This document shows positions 16,331-25,829 of a stretch of DNA of 64,000 nt, one piece after another. A program made the translations under genes and the position numbers. The stretch spans positions 236,332 to 300,331 of the forward strand of contig NZ_CABPRV010000006.1 in the NCBI RefSeq assembly GCF_902459735.1, read 5' to 3'. This DNA is from Pandoraea capi. GTDB lineage: Bacteria > Pseudomonadota > Gammaproteobacteria > Burkholderiales > Burkholderiaceae. Position 1 is the stretch's first letter, and every line of letters starts with the position of its first letter. The notes below the pieces were generated by a model, which was not told the origin of the DNA, did not search any database, and saw only the letters and a program-made list of their open reading frames with translations.

Positions 16331-17644
16331 TCAAAGTCGGTGTGTCGCGGCCTCCATGACCTGCACGCCGCGCATGAAGTCGTCGAGGTCCATGTGCTCG
16401 GCGGGGTTGTGCGAGCCGTTGGCATTACGCACGAACACCATGCCGCTCGGAATCCCTGCGTTGGCGAAGATCGCGGCGTCGTGTCCCGCGCCGCTCGGCA
16501 CGCGTTCCTGCGGCAGATCGAACGAACGGCACACGCCTTCGAGTACGGACGACACGTGCTTGTCCATGATCGCGGGCGCCGACGACAACCGCCGGTCGAA
16601 GACGAATTTCACGCCGCGATCACGCTCGATGGCGCGACACTCGGTGCGCATCAGTTCATAGAAGACGTCGAGCGTGTCGGGGCTCTGGCTGCGGACTTCG
16701 AGGCTGAAATCGACCTTGCCGGGAATGCGCGAAATGGCGTGCTCGGCGGGATCGGTGCCGACGATGCCGGTCGTCACGACCATGTCGATGCCACGCTCGA
16801 GCAGCGCACGCCAGTGTTCGTCCAGACGCGTGATGAGATCGGCCACCGCGAACATGGCGTCGTGACGCAGCCAGCGCGGCACCGCCCCCGAGTGTCCAGC
16901 TTCGCCGACACACGACACGCGGTTGTGACGCACGTTGCCGCGAATGCCGGGCACGATCGCCACGGGCATCTTGCGCGCGATCATCACCGGTCCCTGCTCG
17001 ATGTGAAGCTCCAGCCACGTTCTGGCGCGCGACGCATCGAAGAGCGTCTCGCCTGCGCGAATCGCGTCGACGTCGGCGCCGGCCTGCGCCATGCAGTCGC
17101 CGAGCGAGCGGCCGTGCGTGCGATGCGGCATGGCCAGATCGGCGTCCGTCAGCTTGCCGAACAGCGCGCTCGATCCCATGTAGGCGCGACCGAACCATGC
17201 GCTTTCCTCACCGCGCAGCGCCAGCACGCGCACTGGCGTCGCGGTATGACGCCCGCTGCGCCGCTGTTCGACGAGGCACAGCAGACCGGCGACGATGCCC
17301 GCCAGTCCGTCGTAGTTGCCGCCTTGCGGGACGGAGTCGAGATGCGAGCCGATCCACGTGGCAGGGGCGTCGCCGGTATCTTCTGGCAGCGTGAAGATCA
17401 GGTTGGCGGCGCGGTCGCGGGTGACCGCAAGGCCGTGGTGTCCCGCCCATTCCGTGAGATACGCCGCTGCCGCGTTTTCGCCGTCGCCGTAGCTATCGCG
17501 GGTGATGCCGACGCCATCGCTGCCGAGGCGACGCAGGTCACTAAAGAGTTGCCCGGCCAGCGCGGCCAGTGCGTCCGGTTCCAGCGTCGGTTCCGCATTC
17601 GGGGCGGTGTTCAGATCCGCGTTCAGTTCCGCGTTCAGTTCCAT
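16331..17644 (-). CDS. Zn-dependent hydantoinase/carbamoylase family amidase (N-carbamoyl amino acid or allantoate amidohydrolase type)
   Basis: A 437-residue M20-related amidase. Metal ligands and substrate contacts: GSHLDSVPQGGNYDGLAG, LRGEESAWFG, ELHIEQGPVM, a dimerisation insert with VSCVGEAGHSGAVP, and GHDAAIFANAGIPSGMVFVRN near the C-terminus followed by SHNPAEHM. The family hydrolyses N-carbamoyl amino acids, allantoate, ureidoglycolate or ureidosuccinate. As the last gene of the minus-strand run that includes PyrD- and PyrK-like proteins, a role in releasing ammonia and CO2 from a ureido acid such as N-carbamoyl aspartate is attractive but unproven. Confidence 0.86.
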   Translation of the reverse strand: MELNAELNADLNTAPNAEPTLEPDALAALAGQLFSDLRRLGSDGVGITRDSYGDGENAAAAYLTEWAGHHGLAVTRDRAANLIFTLPEDTGDAPATWIGSHLDSVPQGGNYDGLAGIVAGLLCLVEQRRSGRHTATPVRVLALRGEESAWFGRAYMGSSALFGKLTDADLAMPHRTHGRSLGDCMAQAGADVDAIRAGETLFDASRARTWLELHIEQGPVMIARKMPVAIVPGIRGNVRHNRVSCVGEAGHSGAVPRWLRHDAMFAVADLITRLDEHWRALLERGIDMVVTTGIVGTDPAEHAISRIPGKVDFSLEVRSQSPDTLDVFYELMRTECRAIERDRGVKFVFDRRLSSAPAIMDKHVSSVLEGVCRSFDLPQERVPSGAGHDAAIFANAGIPSGMVFVRNANGSHNPAEHMDLDDFMRGVQVMEAATHRL

Positions 17645-17724: not shown

Positions 17725-18675
17725 TCAGCCCGACTGTTGCGCGAAGCGCAGCCAGCGGTCGGTCAACTGGGCGTCGAGGGCGACACCGCCGGTGAGCGAC
17801 GCGAGCTTCTCTACGCCTTGGGCGTCGCAGTACGCGGAGAGGCCGTCGACGATATGCCCCATGACGGCGGGATCACGGAACGACGCCGTGCCGACCTGTA
17901 CCGCGCTCGCACCGGCGAGCATGAATTCGACCGCATCGTCCGCTGTCTCGATACCGCCGCAGCCGATGATCGGAATGCGTACCGCGCGATGACATTGATG
18001 CACGAGTCGCACGGCCAGCGGTTTGATCGCGGGACCCGAGAGGCCGCCCATCACATTGCCGAGTTTCGGCTTGCGTGTGCGCACGTCGATTGCCATGCCG
18101 AGCACCGTATTGCCCATGACGATGGCGTCGGCGCCGGCGTCTTCCGCCGCACGTGCGATCAGCGCGATCTGCCCGGCGTTGGGCGTGAGCTTCACCCACA
18201 ACGGGTGCGACGTGCGACGCCGGATCGCGCTGACCGCCTTGTACGTGCTTTCCGCCTGCATCGCGAAGGCCATGCCGTCCGCTTCGAGATTGGGGCAGGA
18301 GATGTTCGCCTCGATCGCGGTGACTTCCGGCAGCGACAGTGTCTCGCAAGCTTCGGCGAACGATTCCGCCGTGTCGGCCGAGACCGACACGACGACGGGC
18401 GTGTCGAAGCGGGTGTAGGCGGGCAGCACGTCGCGGCGATAGGCGTCGAGCCCCTTGCTCGGAATGCCGATGGAGTTGAGCATGCCGCTGGCCGTTTCAG
18501 CCACGCGTGGCGTCGGATTCCCGGCGCGCGAGTTGGGAGACACGCTCTTGATGACGAGCGCACCGAGCCGGTTCAGATTGAGCGCTTCGGCGTATTCGAC
18601 GGCGAAGCAGCCCGACGCGGGCATCACGGGATTGCGCAGCGTCAGCGAACCGATGCGAACGGAAAGATCAGCCAA
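17725..18675 (-). CDS. Dihydroorotate dehydrogenase, class 1 type (PyrD-like catalytic subunit)
   Basis: I use TTG 18675 (316 residues, MADLSVRIGSLTLRNPVMPA), which overlaps the end of the PyrK-like gene by eight bases; ATG 18696 is an alternative. The FMN barrel shows NPVMPASGCF, EANISCPNLEADG with the catalytic Cys of class 1 enzymes, LWVKLTPNAG, GGLSGPAIKPLAV, and PIIGCGGI for phosphate binding. Class 1B enzymes work with a PyrK electron-transfer subunit and NAD. Betaproteobacteria normally make pyrimidines with the quinone-linked class 2 enzyme, so this pair is probably catabolic, for example reducing orotate or acting on a related dihydropyrimidine. Confidence 0.85.
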   Translation of the reverse strand: MADLSVRIGSLTLRNPVMPASGCFAVEYAEALNLNRLGALVIKSVSPNSRAGNPTPRVAETASGMLNSIGIPSKGLDAYRRDVLPAYTRFDTPVVVSVSADTAESFAEACETLSLPEVTAIEANISCPNLEADGMAFAMQAESTYKAVSAIRRRTSHPLWVKLTPNAGQIALIARAAEDAGADAIVMGNTVLGMAIDVRTRKPKLGNVMGGLSGPAIKPLAVRLVHQCHRAVRIPIIGCGGIETADDAVEFMLAGASAVQVGTASFRDPAVMGHIVDGLSAYCDAQGVEKLASLTGGVALDAQLTDRWLRFAQQSG

Positions 18676-19627
18676 AGTCCACCTCACCAACGACATCACG
18701 AATCGGGAAAACCGGGCCTTCACGGCACACGCGCAGGAATTGCTTGTCACCGTCGCAATCGAACAGGCGCACGCACGACAGGCACACGCCCATGCCGCAC
18801 GCCATGCGTTGCTCCATCGCGACTTCGGCGGTCATGCCGGGGTGTGCCTCGATCACACGCTGGAGCAGCATCAGCAGACGATGCGAGCCGCAGGTGTAGA
18901 CGGCGTCGTGCGGCGTAGCGGCGAGCAGCGCGCGCACGCGCGGCGCCAGGGCGTCGACGGACGACGAGCCGTCGCTGTCGAACACGCAGTGCACGTCGGC
19001 CAGCGCGCGGGCCTCGGGCGAGCGCAGGAATTCGTCGCGCATCAGATCCGCCTCGCTGCGCGCGGACATCACGACCGTCAACTGCAATCCGGCGGCTGCG
19101 GCGCGTTGCACCAGCGGCGCCATCGTCGCGAGACCCACACCGCGTGCGACGAACATCACGCGCTTCCAGTCGGTATTCAGCGTAAAGGTATTGCCGAGCG
19201 GGCCGACGATATCGAGCGTGGCACCTTCGGCAAGCGTGGCGAGCGCACGGGTGCCGACGCCGGTCACGTTGTAGAGAAACTCGATGGTGTCCGGCTCGGG
19301 ACCGACGCCGTACACACTCATCGGGCGCAGCAGGAACGGCGCTTCGTTGTCCGTCACCGGGCACTTCAACTGATAGAACTGTCCGGGGCGCGTGGTGAGC
19401 GCGACGTCGGCGTCGGCCTGCAAACGCAGGTAGCGATAGCGCGCGTTCACCGCGTGGTGACTGAGCACCCGGCAGCGATGCGTGGCGACGCTGGGCGTAT
19501 CGACTGCGCTGCATGTCGTCGCATCGGTGCGGCACGTGTCATGGCTGTCCTGCCGGTGACACGTGTCCGAGTGCACCGGCGTCATCGTGCGGGTCGCTTT
19601 GGGGGACGTCAGAGAAACGACTGACAT
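18668..19627 (-). CDS. PyrK-like iron-sulfur flavoprotein, dihydroorotate dehydrogenase electron transfer subunit
   Basis: A 319-residue ferredoxin-reductase-type protein. The FAD-binding FLLRPMSVYG (RPxS), the NAD-binding region GLATMAPLV, and the C-terminal 2Fe-2S motif CGMGVCLSC with a fourth Cys in RVCREG are all clear. It shuttles electrons between NAD(H) and the PyrD-like subunit. Compared with ordinary PyrK (about 260 residues) it has roughly 50 extra N-terminal residues rich in Cys, His and Thr. GGAG lies upstream of ATG 19627. The downstream gene overlaps its stop, so the two are translationally coupled. Confidence 0.86.
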   Translation of the reverse strand: MSVVSLTSPKATRTMTPVHSDTCHRQDSHDTCRTDATTCSAVDTPSVATHRCRVLSHHAVNARYRYLRLQADADVALTTRPGQFYQLKCPVTDNEAPFLLRPMSVYGVGPEPDTIEFLYNVTGVGTRALATLAEGATLDIVGPLGNTFTLNTDWKRVMFVARGVGLATMAPLVQRAAAAGLQLTVVMSARSEADLMRDEFLRSPEARALADVHCVFDSDGSSSVDALAPRVRALLAATPHDAVYTCGSHRLLMLLQRVIEAHPGMTAEVAMEQRMACGMGVCLSCVRLFDCDGDKQFLRVCREGPVFPIRDVVGEVDFG

Positions 19628-19720: not shown

Positions 19721-20989
19721 TTATTCGAGTTCCGCGCCCTTGAGTTCGGGGATCAGGAAGCGCGTGGCGATCATGTCGAGCACGTACAGGCTGGCGAGCA
19801 GTGCGATGGCGATCTGGAACGAGTAGCGCGCGGCGAGGGCGCCCACGACGAGCGGTCCGAGCCCGCCGATGGCGCGTCCGATGTTCCAGAGCACGTTCTG
19901 CGCGGTCGCGCGGGCGGCGGTGGGATACGCCTCGGACATGAGCGTGCCGTAGCCGCCGACCATGCCGTTCACGAACATCCCCATGAAGGCGCCCGCGAAG
20001 AGCATCACGGTCGGGTCGGTCAGTTGCGAGTAGAGAATCACCATGACAACTGCACCTGCCTGATACAGCAGGAACGTGGGACGTCGGCCGATGCGATCGG
20101 CCAACTGACCGAAGGCCCAGACGCCGAACATCATGCCGAGCACGGTCACGGCGGTCCAAAGCCCGGACTTCGTGAGCGAGAAGCCGAGCTTCTGCGAGAG
20201 GAACGTCGGCAGCCAGATCATGATCCCGTAGTAGCCGAAGTTCTGCACCGAACACAGAATGACGATGCCCAGACTCACACGGGTGGTGCGCGCGTCTTTC
20301 ACCAGCAGACGGAAGGCGTTCGAGCTACCGTGCGACGGTGTCTTGTCGGTGCGGCGCACGAACACTTCCGGTTCGTGCAGCTTGTTACGCAGCACCCAGG
20401 CAACGAGCGCCGGCAGCACGCCGACGACGAACATGCCGCGCCAGCCGATGTACGAGAGCAGCAGCGGCGTGAGCAGGGCAGCGGCGAGCACGCCCGTCTG
20501 CCAGCCGAGGGCGACGTACGACGAGACGCGGGCGCGCTTGGACGCCGGCCACGCCTCTGCCGCGAGCGCCATGCCGATGCCGAATTCGCCACCGAGACCG
20601 ATGCCCGCAATCGTGCGATAGACCAGCAGGTCCCAGAAGCCCTGCGCCAGCGCGCACAGTCCCGTGAAGACGGCGAACAGCAGAATCGTCCACGTCAGCA
20701 TGCGCACGCGGCCATAGCGATCCGAGAGCGCACCGAACAGAATGCCGCCGACGACCGCGCCGATCAGCGTCCACGTCACCAGCGCACCGGCCTGACCTGC
20801 CGTGAGGTGCAGACCGATCGTGATGGCCGGCAGCATGAAGCCGAGAATCAGCAGATCGAAGCCATCCATCGCATAGCCGATGGCCGAGCCCGCGAGCGCT
20901 TTCCATGCGTATGGCGTGACGGTGTCGTCCGCGCCTTTGAGCGAGGCGCCTGCGGGGCGCGCGCTCGAGGTGTTCAGGTTGGCTTCCAT
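19721..20989 (-). CDS. MFS transporter, aromatic acid/organic acid:H+ symporter type
   Basis: A 422-residue, 12-helix major facilitator. The motif AMDGFDLLILGFMLPAI in helix 1 and ALSDRYGRVRMLTW between helices 2 and 3 are those of the AAHS/metabolite-H+ symporter groups. It is expected to import an organic acid. Its place between the small orphan and the PyrK/PyrD/amidase genes, all on the minus strand, makes it the likely uptake system for the substrate they degrade, perhaps orotate or a ureido acid. A copy of the shared palindrome lies 63 bases upstream of its start. Confidence 0.85.
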   Translation of the reverse strand: MEANLNTSSARPAGASLKGADDTVTPYAWKALAGSAIGYAMDGFDLLILGFMLPAITIGLHLTAGQAGALVTWTLIGAVVGGILFGALSDRYGRVRMLTWTILLFAVFTGLCALAQGFWDLLVYRTIAGIGLGGEFGIGMALAAEAWPASKRARVSSYVALGWQTGVLAAALLTPLLLSYIGWRGMFVVGVLPALVAWVLRNKLHEPEVFVRRTDKTPSHGSSNAFRLLVKDARTTRVSLGIVILCSVQNFGYYGIMIWLPTFLSQKLGFSLTKSGLWTAVTVLGMMFGVWAFGQLADRIGRRPTFLLYQAGAVVMVILYSQLTDPTVMLFAGAFMGMFVNGMVGGYGTLMSEAYPTAARATAQNVLWNIGRAIGGLGPLVVGALAARYSFQIAIALLASLYVLDMIATRFLIPELKGAELE

Positions 20990-21051
20990 GATCGGTTCCC
21001 GTGGGAGACGTCTACCTGCGATGGAATTCGCACGACGGCAAACGTCAAATT

Positions 21052-21067
21052 GTCTATATTTTTAGAC
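21052..21067. promoter_or_regulatory. Operator-like palindrome upstream of the MFS gene (site 1)
   Basis: GTCTATATTTTTAGAC is an imperfect copy of the perfect palindrome at 21431-21446 (14 of 16 positions). It lies between the stop of the small orphan and the MFS start. Confidence 0.6.
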
Positions 21068-21092
21068 GATCAAGTGAAAAAAACGCGTGACG

Positions 21093-21416
21093 TCACGCGT
21101 AGACCTCGGTCGTCGACTGCGCGGCAAAGTGATTGAGTGTGGCGAGAAAGCTGGCGTCGGATTCGGCGGCGGCGTCGCGCAACATCGTCGCGTACGTTTT
21201 CGTGCGTGCCAGAAAGGCGTGGAAGGTGTCGCCGCTGATGGCCATCCCCGACTGACGCTCGGCAAAGGTCTGGGCCGCCTGGGCGAGCAACAGCAAGGCC
21301 GCGGATTCACGTGTGGCGGTGCGCGAGGCATTCAGACAGCGCGCGGCAAAATCCTCGATGTCGGACAGACCGACCGTATCGCGCTGTAACCAGGCGCATG
21401 CGAGTTGCAGATCCAT
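21093..21416 (-). CDS. Hypothetical small helical protein at the head of the PyrD/PyrK operon
   Basis: Read from ATG 21416 (107 residues, MDLQLACAWLQRD), which has GGAG seven bases upstream; the ATG at 21428 overlaps that site. The sequence is all-helical, Ala/Leu-rich and acidic, with no signal peptide or membrane helix (DIEDFAARCLNASRTATRES, FHAFLARTKTYATMLRDAA). It is not a recognised family. It is the first gene of the minus-strand run leading to the MFS transporter, PyrK, PyrD and amidase genes. The perfect palindrome lies just upstream. Confidence 0.6.
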   Translation of the reverse strand: MDLQLACAWLQRDTVGLSDIEDFAARCLNASRTATRESAALLLLAQAAQTFAERQSGMAISGDTFHAFLARTKTYATMLRDAAAESDASFLATLNHFAAQSTTEVYA

Positions 21417-21430
21417 CGTGTGCTCCATCT

Positions 21431-21446
21431 GTCTAAATATTTAGAC
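21431..21446. promoter_or_regulatory. Perfect 16-bp operator-like palindrome (site 2)
   Basis: GTCTAAATATTTAGAC is fully symmetrical and lies 15 bases before the chosen start of the small orphan, where a bound protein would block transcription or initiation. Confidence 0.75.
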
Positions 21447-21622
21447 TAACTGAACCCGAAAGCGTGGGCAAGGTGAAAATAATCGGGGCTAACCCTGATG
21501 TCGGAAGGCCGCGACGGCCATGAGATGCGGCGTAAAGAGAGATGCCGTCGCGGGCAGGCGCGGAGGTGTCTGGCAAAGCACACCCGCCGCGATGCCGGGT
21601 AATGAGCGGAGGTCGGGCGCGT

Positions 21623-22678
21623 TCAGAAACGCATGCGCATGCCCGCGCCGTACGTCTGGCCGGTCGACATATCGCTCATGTGGTCGTACTTGTATGCGAC
21701 GTAGACGTCCGTACGCTTGGACAGCGGATAGTCGTAGCCGAGGGCCCAGGTCGTACGGCGTTGGTTGTCACCCGAACCGTTCGAGCCGGTGTAGGCCACC
21801 GAGGCGAGCACGCTGCCGAGGCCGACCGGTACCGAGGCGCCGAGCTGCCCCGTGTTCGCGTGGAAGTTGCCGCTGGCCGCCTGACTGGCCACGAGCATGT
21901 ACTGCGCGAAGAGCTTCACGAACGACAGATCGTACGAGAGACCCAGTTGCACCGTGTTCTGGTTCGTCAGACCGGTCACGCCGGGGAGTTGCGCCCCGAA
22001 GTCGCCGGGCGTCGCGCTGAAGTTCACGTACTGGTAGTTGATGGCCGCCGCAAACGGACCGTTGGCATACGTGAGGGCCGCGGCCCACTTCTTCGCGCTG
22101 TGGTCCTGCGCGCTATTACCCGTAGCGTAAAGCAACGTGCCCGCGAGACCGGCGTAGGTCGGCGTGGTGTACGCCGCCGCGTTGTTCCAGGCCGAATCGC
22201 CCACCACGCCTTGCGTCCCCAGACCCTTGTAGGTGTGGAAGATCATGGGCGAGAAGGTGTACGAGTTGTTGAACGGGTTGAACTGAATCGTCGCGAGGTA
22301 CATCGGCGTGGTGATGCGCCCCAGACGGAAGGTGCCCAAGGTGGCGTTCGACAGGCCGACGTAGGCGTTGCGCGAGAAGAAGCTGTCGCCTGCGAAGCGG
22401 CCGTAGGTGCCGTTGTTCGGCTGGAAGTAGCTCTCCAGCACGAACAGGGCGCTGTTGCCGCCACCGAGATCTTCCGTGCCCGACAGGCCCCAGTACGACG
22501 TCGTCATGCCGCCGCCTTGCTGGACCGCAGCGGCATTGCCGCCGGGGTTCTTTACCGAACCGACGTAAGCGTCTGCCAACCCGTAGAAGTTCACGCTCGA
22601 TTGCGCATGCGCGGTACCCGTGAGTGCGGCCGCTCCCAATGCGGCGGCGCCAGCCACCTTGTGCCAGGTTTTCATCAT
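21623..22678 (-). CDS. Gram-negative general porin (OmpC-like, Burkholderia type)
   Basis: A 351-residue outer-membrane trimeric porin. The signal peptide (AGAAALGAAALTGTAHAQ) is followed by SSVNFYGLADAYVG, the usual first strand, then repeated amphipathic strands and a C-terminal Phe (AGMRMRF) that marks BAM-dependent insertion. It is transcribed toward the PyrD/PyrK run and lies next to the divergent XRE regulator. A third copy of the palindrome is in the gap between them, so it is probably the outer-membrane entry route for the same substrate. Confidence 0.92.
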   Translation of the reverse strand: MMKTWHKVAGAAALGAAALTGTAHAQSSVNFYGLADAYVGSVKNPGGNAAAVQQGGGMTTSYWGLSGTEDLGGGNSALFVLESYFQPNNGTYGRFAGDSFFSRNAYVGLSNATLGTFRLGRITTPMYLATIQFNPFNNSYTFSPMIFHTYKGLGTQGVVGDSAWNNAAAYTTPTYAGLAGTLLYATGNSAQDHSAKKWAAALTYANGPFAAAINYQYVNFSATPGDFGAQLPGVTGLTNQNTVQLGLSYDLSFVKLFAQYMLVASQAASGNFHANTGQLGASVPVGLGSVLASVAYTGSNGSGDNQRRTTWALGYDYPLSKRTDVYVAYKYDHMSDMSTGQTYGAGMRMRF

Positions 22679-22822
22679 TCCCTCTTTGTTTGTATAAATT
22701 TCTGGACGGCGCGCAGCCTATCACCACCTGCGCGTTGGGTCATCCCCCTCGGCACCATGAGGCCGTTTGCGAGTGACGGCATTCTCATGCGGCGGGGGAG
22801 CCGCGTCTGGAATCGTGCGGAT

Positions 22823-22838
22823 ATCTAAAAAATTAGAC
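22823..22838. promoter_or_regulatory. Operator-like palindrome between porin and regulator (site 3)
   Basis: ATCTAAAAAATTAGAC matches 13 of 16 positions of the perfect site 2. It lies about 145 bases upstream of the porin start and about 115 bases before the regulator's -10. Confidence 0.6.
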
Positions 22839-22953
22839 AACCGGAAAAATATTCGACCGCCCGAAGTGTGGTGCGCATCGCACGGTGAGGGAGGGGAATT
22901 TCGGCGAGTGTTGACGCGCGACGCGACGCCGGTCAGACGGGGCGCGCGACCGG

Positions 22954-22959
22954 TATAAT
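22954..22959 (+). promoter_or_regulatory. Minus-10 element of the XRE regulator
   Basis: TATAAT is a perfect hexamer; no good -35 hexamer is present at the usual distance, which may indicate a need for activation. The leader would be about 105 bases. Confidence 0.4.
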
Positions 22960-23070
22960 CCCGGCACTGCAACGTGGGCCGAGGCTGTCCACGACGCCCT
23001 GCGACGTTCAGCGACGATCGTCGGCTTGCGCAGAGACGCGGTATCCAAGAGGTTTTCGACAGGGGGCGAT

Positions 23071-23985
23071 TTGACTCGAGCTGCAACGACATCCCGGGCG
23101 CCGCGAGGCGCGCGTTTCAATTTCCGAGCCATTGGCGAGCGCCTGCGCGCCTATCGTCTGGCCGCGGAGTTACGCAGTGAGGATGTCGCCGAGCAACTCG
23201 ATATCTCGCGCGCCGCCATCTATAAGCTGGAGCGCGGCGAGATCGTCAAGATCGACACGCTGGAGCGTCTGGCGGCGCTGCTGGGGGTGTCGCTGGCCAA
23301 CCTGCTCGGCGTGGAAGTGGAGTATCACGACTCGGCAGTGAGCTACTTCGAGCGCATGCGCCAGTTGGAGAGTCGTTCCGAGCGCATCGTTGCGCACTTT
23401 GATCCCATCTCGTTCCTGCTCACGTCCGACGATTACGACGTCTGGCTGCGTCACATGCTGGCGGAAAGTATTCCGCCGACGCTCGCCGACCGGCATTGGG
23501 AAAACACGATCAATCGCGTGCTCGGCATCTTGCAGGATCGCAAGTCGAGCTTTTCGCGTCAGCGTCTGGCGGTCACGAGCCTGATCGGACTGCGGCAGAT
23601 CGAGCAGTTCCTGCATCACGGACTGGTCGGTCGGCTGGGCCTGCCGCCGGGTGTGCAGCTTGAGCGGAAGATGGCCGCGCGACGCGAAGTGGCGCGCATC
23701 GTCGAGTTTCTCGAAGCGGACACCTCCGGTGTGCAGATCGGGATCGTCAGCGACAACATGCCCAATGAGACGTTTCAGATCTTCGAAGCGCAAGGCGAGG
23801 CGTATGTGGCTGTCTCGCCGTTCCGTCTGGGGGAGTTGCCGAATCTGCGAACCGGCATCGCGACCATCACCACCTCGCCCGACGGCGTGGGCATGTATCG
23901 CGCCATGATCGATCGCCTGTGGGCCGATTCGGCCAAGGGCAAAGAGGGCGCCGCCCTGCTCGGTCAGTTGCTCGCCCGCTTCTGA
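23071..23985 (+). CDS. XRE family transcriptional regulator
   Basis: TTG 23071 is chosen because AGGGGG precedes it closely; this gives 304 residues. Residues about 15-75 are a Cro/CI helix-turn-helix (IGERLRAYRLAAELRSEDVAE, LDISRAAIYKLERGEI, TLERLAALLGVSLANLLGV). The remaining ~220 residues form an unrecognised C-terminal domain, probably a ligand-sensing one. It is divergent from the porin gene and next to three copies of a 16-bp palindrome, making it the best candidate for the local regulator. Confidence 0.85.
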   Translation: MTRAATTSRAPRGARFNFRAIGERLRAYRLAAELRSEDVAEQLDISRAAIYKLERGEIVKIDTLERLAALLGVSLANLLGVEVEYHDSAVSYFERMRQLESRSERIVAHFDPISFLLTSDDYDVWLRHMLAESIPPTLADRHWENTINRVLGILQDRKSSFSRQRLAVTSLIGLRQIEQFLHHGLVGRLGLPPGVQLERKMAARREVARIVEFLEADTSGVQIGIVSDNMPNETFQIFEAQGEAYVAVSPFRLGELPNLRTGIATITTSPDGVGMYRAMIDRLWADSAKGKEGAALLGQLLARF

Positions 23986-24212: not shown

Positions 24213-25829
24213 ATGATGGGAACACTGTTCGGGTCAATATCGGGCGCGGCGTCGGCGCCGGTCCTCACCGGCGGAAAGTTGCTGCCCTGCGAGTGCGGTT
24301 CGAGCTTCGGATCGGACTTCGAGCGGTTGGGCGCCGTGCCGGTGACGACAACGACGGAAGCTTCCGGCAAGCCGTGGCAATCGTACCCGGAGCGCCGGCG
24401 CACCCTGCAGGATGCCGACGGTCTGTCGTTCGGGCACTGGCAGGCGTGTCGCGACGCCGAGCGACTCATCGCCGACGATCTGATCGGACGGCCGCTGGTT
24501 CCCAATGCGGTGAGTGAGCGTGTCGAGCGCTGGCACAGCATGTTTCAGCGCGGGATCGAGCGCGATGTCTCGTTCGAAGACGGGCGCACCGAAGCCATGC
24601 GGCAGGTGCGCTACGGTGTGCCGCCCGAGCCCCGGCCGTTCATACGCACCTTCGACCCGGAGCCGGTGATCGTGCAACTGCTCGAGATTGCGCATGTGAA
24701 CGACGAGATCGACCGTATGACGGTGATCGTGGACCGGGTGCCCAAGGGGCCCGCGAAATCGATGGCTCAGCACAGTCTTCACGACATGAAGAAGATGCGC
24801 GACACGATGCTCGTGCTCTCGACGACGCAGCACGATCGAACGTTCAACGAACTCAAGGCCGAGCGCAATGTGCTGATTGCGCTCAACGACATGGCGCGCG
24901 AGGCCCAGCGCGAGATGTCGAACGGCGGGGCTGACGTACCCCTTCGGCTCAAGGTGCGTGGCAGCAGACTGATCCTCAAGCCTGCGACGTCGAAATCCCG
25001 ATTCCAGAAGAACCACATCCGTGCACGTAACGATGCCGCGCGACTGGCGTTGTTGCTCGGCTATCCCGCAGGCCAGCCGGTGACGTTGTCCGACATCCGC
25101 GACCGTGGCTTCGGCCTTTACGAATATTCGACGGTGCTGCACAGCGCGAAGACGGCATCGCCGGAATGCACCGTGTCTTGGCTCGGCATGCGGGCGCTGG
25201 AGATCGACAACTGGAAGCACGTGGCTCGCGGTTTGCAGGATGACCTCCGCGAAACGGACGGCGGTCGCCTGCTCGGCGCGCCGGTCACGCCATCCCACGC
25301 GGTGCACGACGACAGTCGTCTCGATGCGATCGATGGGGCGCCGCAGTTGTCCGGCGTAGACGAGATCGATGCGGTGCCGATGCGCACGATGCCGAAGGAG
25401 GCGGGGGCGCTCGGTGCGCAGGCGCCGACAGCGACAGCCGTGTCGTCGGCGCAGCGCGCATCGCATGGACGGGCGCTGACATCACGCAGAGGCCAGTTCG
25501 CGGATCAGTTCATCGGTATGCAGGCGGGCAGAGCGGGACGCCTGAGCGCGATTCTCGAAGGCTCCCCCTCGGCGGAGCGTCTGGCGCAGACGGAACCGTC
25601 ACGCGGGCCGCGAGAGTCGCGAGGGTCGGTACCGGCGGCGGTGTCACGTGGGCGATCGGTGCCGTTGCCGTTGGCGACGTTGGCAACGAACGCACGTGCG
25701 CAAGTGGTCGAGACACCCGAAGCGATGGCGTTGAGAACCGGGGCACGACCGAAGACGCACCGGCGGGTTGCATCGCCTTCGGAGACGCCGCCGCCGTTGC
25801 CACTGCCCTCGCCGCCTGATGCAACCTGA
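24213..25829 (+). CDS. Unrecognised 538-residue protein with a Pro/Ser/Arg-rich tail
   Basis: AGGAG lies ahead of ATG 24213 and a strong terminator follows at 25906, so it is a real single-gene unit. Residues ~60-340 look like a folded, mostly helical domain with many charged residues (HVNDEIDRMTVIVDRVPKG, HDRTFNELKAERNVLIALN, RARNDAARLALLLGYPAG). Residues ~350-538 are low-complexity, rich in Ala, Arg, Ser and Pro, ending in a polyproline stretch. It has no signal peptide or membrane helix. I know no family match. The folded-domain-plus-disordered-tail design is seen in secreted effectors, but no secretion genes lie here. Confidence 0.6.
   Translation: MMGTLFGSISGAASAPVLTGGKLLPCECGSSFGSDFERLGAVPVTTTTEASGKPWQSYPERRRTLQDADGLSFGHWQACRDAERLIADDLIGRPLVPNAVSERVERWHSMFQRGIERDVSFEDGRTEAMRQVRYGVPPEPRPFIRTFDPEPVIVQLLEIAHVNDEIDRMTVIVDRVPKGPAKSMAQHSLHDMKKMRDTMLVLSTTQHDRTFNELKAERNVLIALNDMAREAQREMSNGGADVPLRLKVRGSRLILKPATSKSRFQKNHIRARNDAARLALLLGYPAGQPVTLSDIRDRGFGLYEYSTVLHSAKTASPECTVSWLGMRALEIDNWKHVARGLQDDLRETDGGRLLGAPVTPSHAVHDDSRLDAIDGAPQLSGVDEIDAVPMRTMPKEAGALGAQAPTATAVSSAQRASHGRALTSRRGQFADQFIGMQAGRAGRLSAILEGSPSAERLAQTEPSRGPRESRGSVPAAVSRGRSVPLPLATLATNARAQVVETPEAMALRTGARPKTHRRVASPSETPPPLPLPSPPDAT

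Follow-up and report, generated by a model that had tools for sequence, protein, structure and literature searches.

A conserved palindrome as the probable operator of a putative orotate uptake and degradation locus beside an XRE-family regulator in Pandoraea

A stretch of 64,000 nucleotides from Pandoraea capi (below, the window) carries a 16-base-pair (bp) palindrome at several places in one locus, around genes for a PyrD/PyrK-type dihydroorotate dehydrogenase, a transporter of the major facilitator superfamily (MFS), an outer-membrane porin, a small orphan protein and a regulator of the XRE family. The locus raises two questions: what does the repeated palindrome do there, and which protein binds it? 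An earlier note on this DNA had proposed a regulon with the XRE protein as the likeliest binder. Comparison of sequences leads us to regard it as likely that the palindromes are operators of a local regulon for orotate uptake and breakdown, probably bound by the XRE regulator.

The three palindromes reported in the earlier note were found where it had placed them, at 21431-21446 (GTCTAAATATTTAGAC, 0 mismatches), 21052-21067 (2 mismatches) and 22823-22838 (3 mismatches). It had noticed no other copy in the window, and at up to 3 mismatches there is none; to the three we add a weaker copy with 4 mismatches at 22692-22707. The gene context is likewise as described, with the MFS, small orphan and porin genes on the minus strand and the XRE gene on the plus strand. 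The sites are:

21052..21067: O1, candidate operator GTCTATATTTTTAGAC, 62 bp ahead of the MFS gene start
21431..21446: O2, candidate operator, the perfect palindrome GTCTAAATATTTAGAC, 14 bp ahead of the probable start of the orphan at 21416
22692..22707: O3, operator-like, degenerate GTATAAATTTCTGGAC with 4 mismatches, 13 bp ahead of the porin ATG
22823..22838: O4, candidate operator ATCTAAAAAATTAGAC, in the porin-XRE intergenic region, 144 bp ahead of the porin start

Three matches at up to 3 mismatches compare with 0.02 expected in the window, and none of 100 dinucleotide shuffles reached three. In the whole 5.85-Mb genome (31 contigs), the same threshold yielded only the three window sites and two strays (GTCGAATTATTTCGAC and TTTTAATTATTTAGAC).

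The sites are conserved within the genus. At up to 2 mismatches, 25 of 32 Pandoraea genomes have at least two sites, and a 26th, P. terrae (G028), has one, distant from its XRE gene; the reversed pattern, applied to the same 32 genomes as a control, gave 5 matches in 3 genomes. The 25 site-bearing genomes are the same 25 that carry a close relative of PyrK (81-100% identity) and the orphan (below, cassette-bearing genomes), and in all 25 of them O2 has 0 mismatches. The spacers were aligned in 15 of these genomes (the window and 14 others). O2 is unchanged in all 15: its identity to the window is 100%, whereas the 16-bp windows of that spacer have a median of 56% (rank 4 of 197). O1 is the top window of the spacer between the MFS gene and the orphan (92% vs. 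a median of 69%, rank 1 of 91). O4 is also present in all 15 (90% vs. a median of 59%, rank 39 of 377), in a spacer that contains further conserved blocks, namely O3 and the XRE promoter. O3 lies 13 bp ahead of the porin start in each aligned genome. Its distance to O4 is 130-132 bp in 14 genomes and 143 bp in one; we do not claim DNA looping between the two. The earlier note had named conservation upstream of orthologues as one test of its proposal, and such conservation is what we observed, in 25 of 25 genomes for O2 and, for the sites at the MFS gene and at porin/XRE, in 15 of 15.

At up to 3 mismatches, genome-wide scans of 14 Pandoraea genomes gave 58 forward matches and 19 matches to the reversed control, the three cassette-less genomes among them contributing 5 and 6, respectively. 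In 11 cassette-bearing genomes, copies with both the GTCT and the AGAC end occur at the locus only, while the strays miss one or both of these ends; the recurrent strays are GTCGAA...TTCGAC-like or TTTTAATTATTTAGAC, and the others are single. The stray site of P. terrae, which has no cassette, is GTCTAAATTTTTGGAC and lies on a different contig from its XRE gene. Because both-ended copies are confined to the locus, the word regulon stands here for one locus with three or four operators. A different palindrome, GTCGAA...TTCGAC or near it, occurs once per genome at up to 3 mismatches in G000 (C7:171155-171170), G003, G009, G018, G020, G021, G027, G028 and G031, and is possibly an operator of another regulator.

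The genes and signals around the sites are as follows:

16331..17644, minus strand: hydantoinase/carbamoylase-family amidase, probable N-carbamoyl-aspartate hydrolase (TIGR01879, 257.9 bits, cut-off 204)
17725..18750, minus strand: PyrD, class 1B dihydroorotate dehydrogenase (PRK07259, 367 bits, cut-off 269)
18668..19627, minus strand: PyrK-like electron-transfer subunit (DHODB_Fe-S_bind, 48.9 bits, cut-off 23.9)
19721..20989, minus strand: MFS importer resembling aromatic-acid/H+ symporters (TIGR00895, 345 bits, below the cut-off of 418.55)
21083..21100, minus strand: terminator-like hairpin with a T tract behind it, separating the orphan from the MFS operon
21093..21416, minus strand: small orphan, 107 amino acids from its likely start, found with XRE in most Burkholderiales loci examined
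21623..22678, minus strand: outer-membrane porin (Porin_4, Pfam)
22954..22959, plus strand: TATAAT box, probable -10 element of the XRE promoter, kept in 15 of 15 aligned genomes
23071..23985, plus strand: XRE regulator, 304 amino acids, TTG start, candidate operator binder (Pfam, predicted fold, linkage)

None of the sites overlaps the TATAAT box, which also precedes the XRE gene in P. cepalis (G007) and P. eparura (G010). A sigma-70 promoter scan of 20950-23120 found no promoter. The hairpin is no evidence by itself, because the scan count was 1 compared to 1.8 in shuffles.

Orotate is an intermediate of pyrimidine synthesis, and several genes of the locus and of its relatives point to it as a substrate for degradation. 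The earlier description of a PyrD/PyrK catabolic locus agrees with the models for a class 1B dihydroorotate dehydrogenase (PyrD plus PyrK), both of which the window proteins match, although the PyrK equivalog models stay below their cut-off (best 125.6 of 314). Outside the window's own locus, the operons of genus g3 (including Cupriavidus) extend with a dihydroorotase (TIGR00856, 432.9 bits, cut-off 292.95) and also hold aspartate ammonia-lyase (TIGR00839, 693.5 and 700.8 bits, cut-off 681.2); the locus of the window itself contains neither. In Hydrogenophaga and Variovorax, the loci include a gene resembling orotate phosphoribosyltransferase, with scores of 239 and 220 bits that miss the cut-off of 245. 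The combination of PyrD/PyrK and carbamoylase with the dihydroorotase and aspartase of relatives suggests the route from orotate via dihydroorotate, N-carbamoyl-aspartate and aspartate to fumarate. Hence, orotate appears to be the best-supported substrate, the locus very probably takes up and degrades it, and the MFS protein is, by gene context, the probable orotate importer.

A second PyrD/PyrK pair, about 41-51% identical, was seen in L048:4533-6310 (G031) and L053:5065-6871 (G006), the PyrK match of the latter being in two overlapping pieces. The L048 pair adjoins genes for a catechol 2,3-dioxygenase, an EutA/arylmalonate-decarboxylase-like protein and a LysR regulator. We used these clusters as a control, and neither has a site within 4 mismatches. 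Being siteless and, in L048, having catechol 2,3-dioxygenase and LysR neighbours, the second cluster is a different system.

If the XRE protein binds the palindromes, the two should occur together in other genera. We surveyed 398 evenly drawn genomes of the family, with the motif at up to 1 mismatch and XRE at E ≤ 1e-15, and found the motif in 40 genomes, XRE in 59 and the orphan in 39. Counting XRE matches of at least 66% identity over nearly the full length, a set picked after the data were seen that omits a partial match in G108 and relatives of 52-59% and 33-34% identity, 35 genomes have both XRE and motif, 6 have XRE only, 5 motif only and 352 neither. The corresponding numbers outside Pandoraea are 10, 3, 5 and 348, and with all 59 XRE genomes they become 35, 24, 5 and 334. 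The five motif-only genomes contain one-mismatch matches and no XRE match.

We also searched GTDB genomes with the XRE alignment and analyzed the best 80 of 116 loci, many of which are mutually close relatives: 18 from Pandoraea, 6 from Pseudomonas, 14 from Gilliamella and 42 others, mostly Burkholderiales. Neighboring genes were called by a home-made GC-frame heuristic that misses genes, and absences therefore rest on tblastn or hidden Markov model searches of the fetched stretch. In 53 of the 80 loci (15 Pandoraea, 6 Pseudomonas, 0 Gilliamella and 32 others), two or more of MFS, PyrK, PyrD and carbamoylase (at least 45% identity) were found near XRE. A loose site, with at most 1 mismatch in the GTCT/AGAC ends and an A/T-rich center, is present anywhere in 47 of these 53 cassette loci, and at most 400 bp before the start of the MFS, pyrK, orphan, porin or XRE gene in 44, compared to 2 of 53 for a scrambled pattern. 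The strict pattern has 26 copies in 22 of the 62 non-Pandoraea loci, while five scrambled patterns gave 0, 2, 1, 0 and 0. Sites by the same genes also occur in Paraburkholderia, Burkholderia, Trinickia, Caballeronia, Cupriavidus, Pigmentiphaga, Massilia and Pseudomonas. In the Paraburkholderia and Burkholderia regions that we read, the order is the same, PyrD-PyrK-MFS-orphan-site-porin-site-XRE.

All six Pseudomonas loci, with XRE proteins 47-50% identical, have several sites, mainly of the form GTCTAA..TTGATAC, some being nearer the Burkholderiales form. These sites precede pyrK and the MFS gene and also lie between XRE and a gene for a protein of 284-292 amino acids, which by eye has the look of an outer-membrane channel; of two such proteins examined, one was searched against Pfam and both against NCBIfam, with no match. 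Of 18 matches to the Pseudomonas form across five of these genomes, 17 are on the contig of the locus. Three Pseudomonas XRE proteins keep SRAAVY in the recognition helix and then read RLELGKIVKL, where Burkholderiales have KLERGEIVKI or RMEKGEIVKI; this change in the recognition region matches the change of the site, which is suggestive only. An off-locus Pseudomonas-type site, GTCTAATTTTTGATAC (L198:4337, G400:C72), lies between genes that look by eye cytochrome-oxidase- and CheR-like. In the bee-gut genus Gilliamella (L179-L182, L185, L187, L189-L196), a lone XRE relative of 50-52% identity occurs with no pathway genes; in L180 its neighbors are, by eye, housekeeping-like (a protease, aroA, cmk and rpsA). 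The 14 A/T-rich Gilliamella loci show no excess of sites, with 10 loose sites and 17 control matches.

This distribution supports the earlier suggestion that XRE is the likeliest binder, as it tracks the sites across genera, including Pseudomonas loci in which no orphan was found, and we consider it the best candidate.

Several observations weigh against this reading. Of the operators themselves, O3 is weak, and as the reversed control also matches at 3 mismatches, weak single sites mean little. Fisher values calculated from the 398-genome table overstate significance, since genomes share ancestry and the counts are not independent. G280, G213 and G121 have a close XRE and no motif at 1 mismatch, and G045 and G080 have relatives of the orphan and MFS genes, sites at 4 mismatches only and no close XRE. 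Six cassette loci are siteless (L157, L160, L162, L163, L169 and L171), and three more (L164, L176 and L197) have sites only away from gene starts. Some of the siteless cassette loci end near or within the first genes; others do not end before the promoter, and the motif may therefore have drifted in some of them.

Moreover, P. cepalis, P. eparura and P. terrae retain XRE without the cassette or a nearby site. In the first two, the XRE gene follows the M20 peptidase gene, and the porin, orphan, MFS, PyrK, PyrD and carbamoylase genes and the sites are all missing from the locus; in P. terrae, an 82%-identical XRE is found at another place. The XRE proteins of P. cepalis and P. eparura are 91-92% identical to that of the window, and the ratio of nonsynonymous to synonymous substitution rates (dN/dS) is 0.05-0.09, a rough estimate, as synonymous distances are high. 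The low dN/dS in cassette-less genomes suggests that XRE may have another role. The idea, based on these two genomes, that XRE is independent of the sites was weakened once other genera showed XRE beside the same genes, but it still counts on the negative side. In synonymous distance, the two genes are closest to the XRE gene of cassette-bearing G029 (0.47-0.50 vs. 0.66-0.95, with five cassette-bearing genomes compared), which fits cassette loss, a conclusion resting on one gene. Downstream of XRE, an open reading frame of 538 amino acids (24213-25829 in the window) keeps its position in many Pandoraea with only 31-66% identity, its neighbors exceeding 90%; it is a fast-changing gene.

The retention of XRE in these three genomes, and likewise the siteless TATAAT box of the Pandoraea XRE gene itself, would suit a different regulator, encoded elsewhere in the genome, that binds the palindromes and has XRE as a mere neighbor. 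Still, with XRE as the one regulator family compared systematically with the sites, such a binder seems unlikely, as XRE stays with both pathway and sites in Burkholderiales and in Pseudomonas even though the gene order and the small protein vary. Enzyme-less XRE relatives point in the same direction. They lie near genes of carboxylate transporters, namely DASS (L102:6932-8492), TctC (L105, with relatives in L106, L117, L146, L148 and L149) and a CitMHS-type one (L101:10047-11444), and still have a site nearby: these last six loci of the TctC group all carry GTCTTCTTTTTGAGAT beside XRE, and L102 has a site-like palindrome near it. The exception is L101, with no site.

The small orphan could itself be a DNA-binding regulator repressing its own gene and the locus, given that the strictest and most tightly placed site is at its own start, that a small protein of the orphan family is present in every locus with a strict GTCT...AGAC site among the 80, and that the orphan is missing from siteless P. 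cepalis and P. eparura. Since relatives of the orphan have MNLQ as their first residues, its likely start is the second ATG (21416), which puts the perfect palindrome 14 bp before this start. The orphan has no Pfam or NCBIfam match, is helical in a structural model (predicted local distance difference test score 86) whose fold search gave no match below E 1, and is net acidic, with 12 aspartate plus glutamate and 8 lysine plus arginine residues, all of which speaks against DNA binding. The orphan has distant relatives in a second set of small proteins, of 108 amino acids, whose genes lie downstream of XRE in genera such as Cupriavidus and Variovorax (hhalign probability 84, E 7e-6 over 100 columns; cross matches at E 4e-3 to 6e-5). 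The orphan or a member of this set occurs in 15 of 18 Pandoraea loci and 36 of 42 other loci, and in none of the 6 Pseudomonas or 14 Gilliamella loci.

Thus, sites and XRE are present in all six Pseudomonas loci, and the fetched stretches match neither small-protein profile. Similarly, the XRE gene of G337 is preceded by a perfect site, while the genome has no orphan match and its locus L100 neither profile. Caballeronia carries a second cassette of porin, MFS, PyrK, PyrD and carbamoylase genes (L103:6903-12806, G261:C42) with a perfect site and, in the stretch, no small protein, though the genome has one elsewhere; this stretch contains no XRE either, the XRE match of the genome being on contig C46 with a cassette of its own. 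Because sites and XRE are kept in the Pseudomonas loci and in G337 although the orphan is not, we disfavor it as the DNA binder and hold this role for it to be very improbable. Rather, the small protein may be a partner or co-sensor of XRE. In L137 (Paraburkholderia humisilvae), a perfect site lies between a small-protein gene and XRE, and the fetched stretch has no pathway enzymes. L093 and L096 (G119 and G192) encode an XRE-like protein (33%), an orphan relative (about 40%) and a carbamoylase relative, and L093 also an ABC-type solute-binding protein; this more distant set is perhaps a sister pathway for another carbamoyl compound.

Finally, a structural reading of the repeats is hardly credible, whether as the inverted repeats of a mobile element, as hairpins in RNA or as A/T-rich palindromes arisen by chance: although in Pandoraea the whole cassette is either there or missing as one block, with the genes for the M20 peptidase and XRE on its two sides, the sites are internal to this block, ahead of gene starts at conserved distances, they are conserved above their spacers and rare in scrambled controls, and the A/T-rich Gilliamella loci have no excess of them.

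Returning to XRE as the probable binder, its N-terminus contains a Cro/CI helix-turn-helix above threshold (HTH_31, 47.2 bits, cut-off 27; HTH_3, 42.6 bits, cut-off 23). The C-terminal two thirds have no match in Pfam or NCBIfam; residues about 81-304 are predicted to adopt a PLD/TrmB-like fold of the phospholipase-D superfamily, and within them the segment SPFR.G (residues 249-254) is invariant. The catalytic phospholipase D motif H.K....[DE] is in none of 27 aligned XRE rows.

In the mechanism that we propose, an XRE dimer would bind the palindromes through the Cro/CI helix-turn-helix, and the PLD/TrmB-like domain would sense orotate or an early intermediate. PyrD/PyrK would reduce orotate to dihydroorotate, the ring would be opened by a dihydroorotase encoded outside the locus (we assume the housekeeping enzyme), and the carbamoylase would convert N-carbamoyl-aspartate to aspartate. 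A repressor is favored because a dimer at O2 or O3, 13-14 bp before start codons, would hinder transcription; repression relieved by orotate or an early intermediate thus seems to us somewhat more plausible than activation, which keeps a substantial share of the probability. The inducer would free the repressor, so that the porin, the small protein, the inner-membrane importer and the enzymes would be switched on jointly. A more far-reaching proposal is that XRE represents a new class of sensors, in which an XRE helix-turn-helix is combined with a non-catalytic PLD/TrmB-like domain sensing orotate or dihydroorotate, the small helical protein of Burkholderiales acts as a co-sensor or anti-repressor, and control extends from outer-membrane entry to aspartate or fumarate in Burkholderiales and Pseudomonas. 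We offer it tentatively, as a possibility that we would rather doubt than expect.

A dedicated orotate sensor and pathway would explain why an NAD-type dihydroorotate dehydrogenase is found in a transport-linked operon. It would also give the unnamed group of XRE regulators a testable function with a ready operator sequence, and open an entry point to a family of small proteins for which Pfam and NCBIfam gave no match; the XRE regulator, should orotate be its ligand, would also be a natural biosensor part. We know of no described regulator of the classical reductive orotate pathway, and a search of the open-access literature, which leaves subscription journals mostly uncovered, returned no description of this regulator or of an orotate-catabolic regulon.

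The architecture of XRE recalls two known systems. BzdR has an N-terminal Cro/CI-type helix-turn-helix and a C-terminal shikimate-kinase-like effector domain, and is encoded next to a catabolic operon. XRE follows a similar plan, with an N-terminal Cro/CI helix-turn-helix, a candidate effector domain at the C-terminus and a catabolic operon beside it. However, this C-terminal domain is predicted to be PLD/TrmB-like, not shikimate-kinase-like, and the BzdR/PRK08154-type full-length model gives 22.6 bits (cut-off 204), aligning with residues 17-96, the helix-turn-helix, only. Archaeal TrmBL2 and TrmB share with XRE the combination of a DNA-binding domain and a phospholipase-D-like fold (Foldseek E 1.9e-4 and 3.7e-3, respectively); unlike in these proteins, the DNA-binding part of XRE is of the Cro/CI type, and identity is about 9%.

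For the pathway, the known counterpart is reductive orotate degradation of the Clostridium oroticum type. The two are alike in the class 1B dihydroorotate dehydrogenase with PyrK and in an enzyme of the carbamoylase family, as well as in the dihydroorotase and aspartase found in the operons of relatives. The locus described here differs in that it belongs to proteobacteria and adds a porin, an MFS importer, a small helical protein and an XRE regulator.

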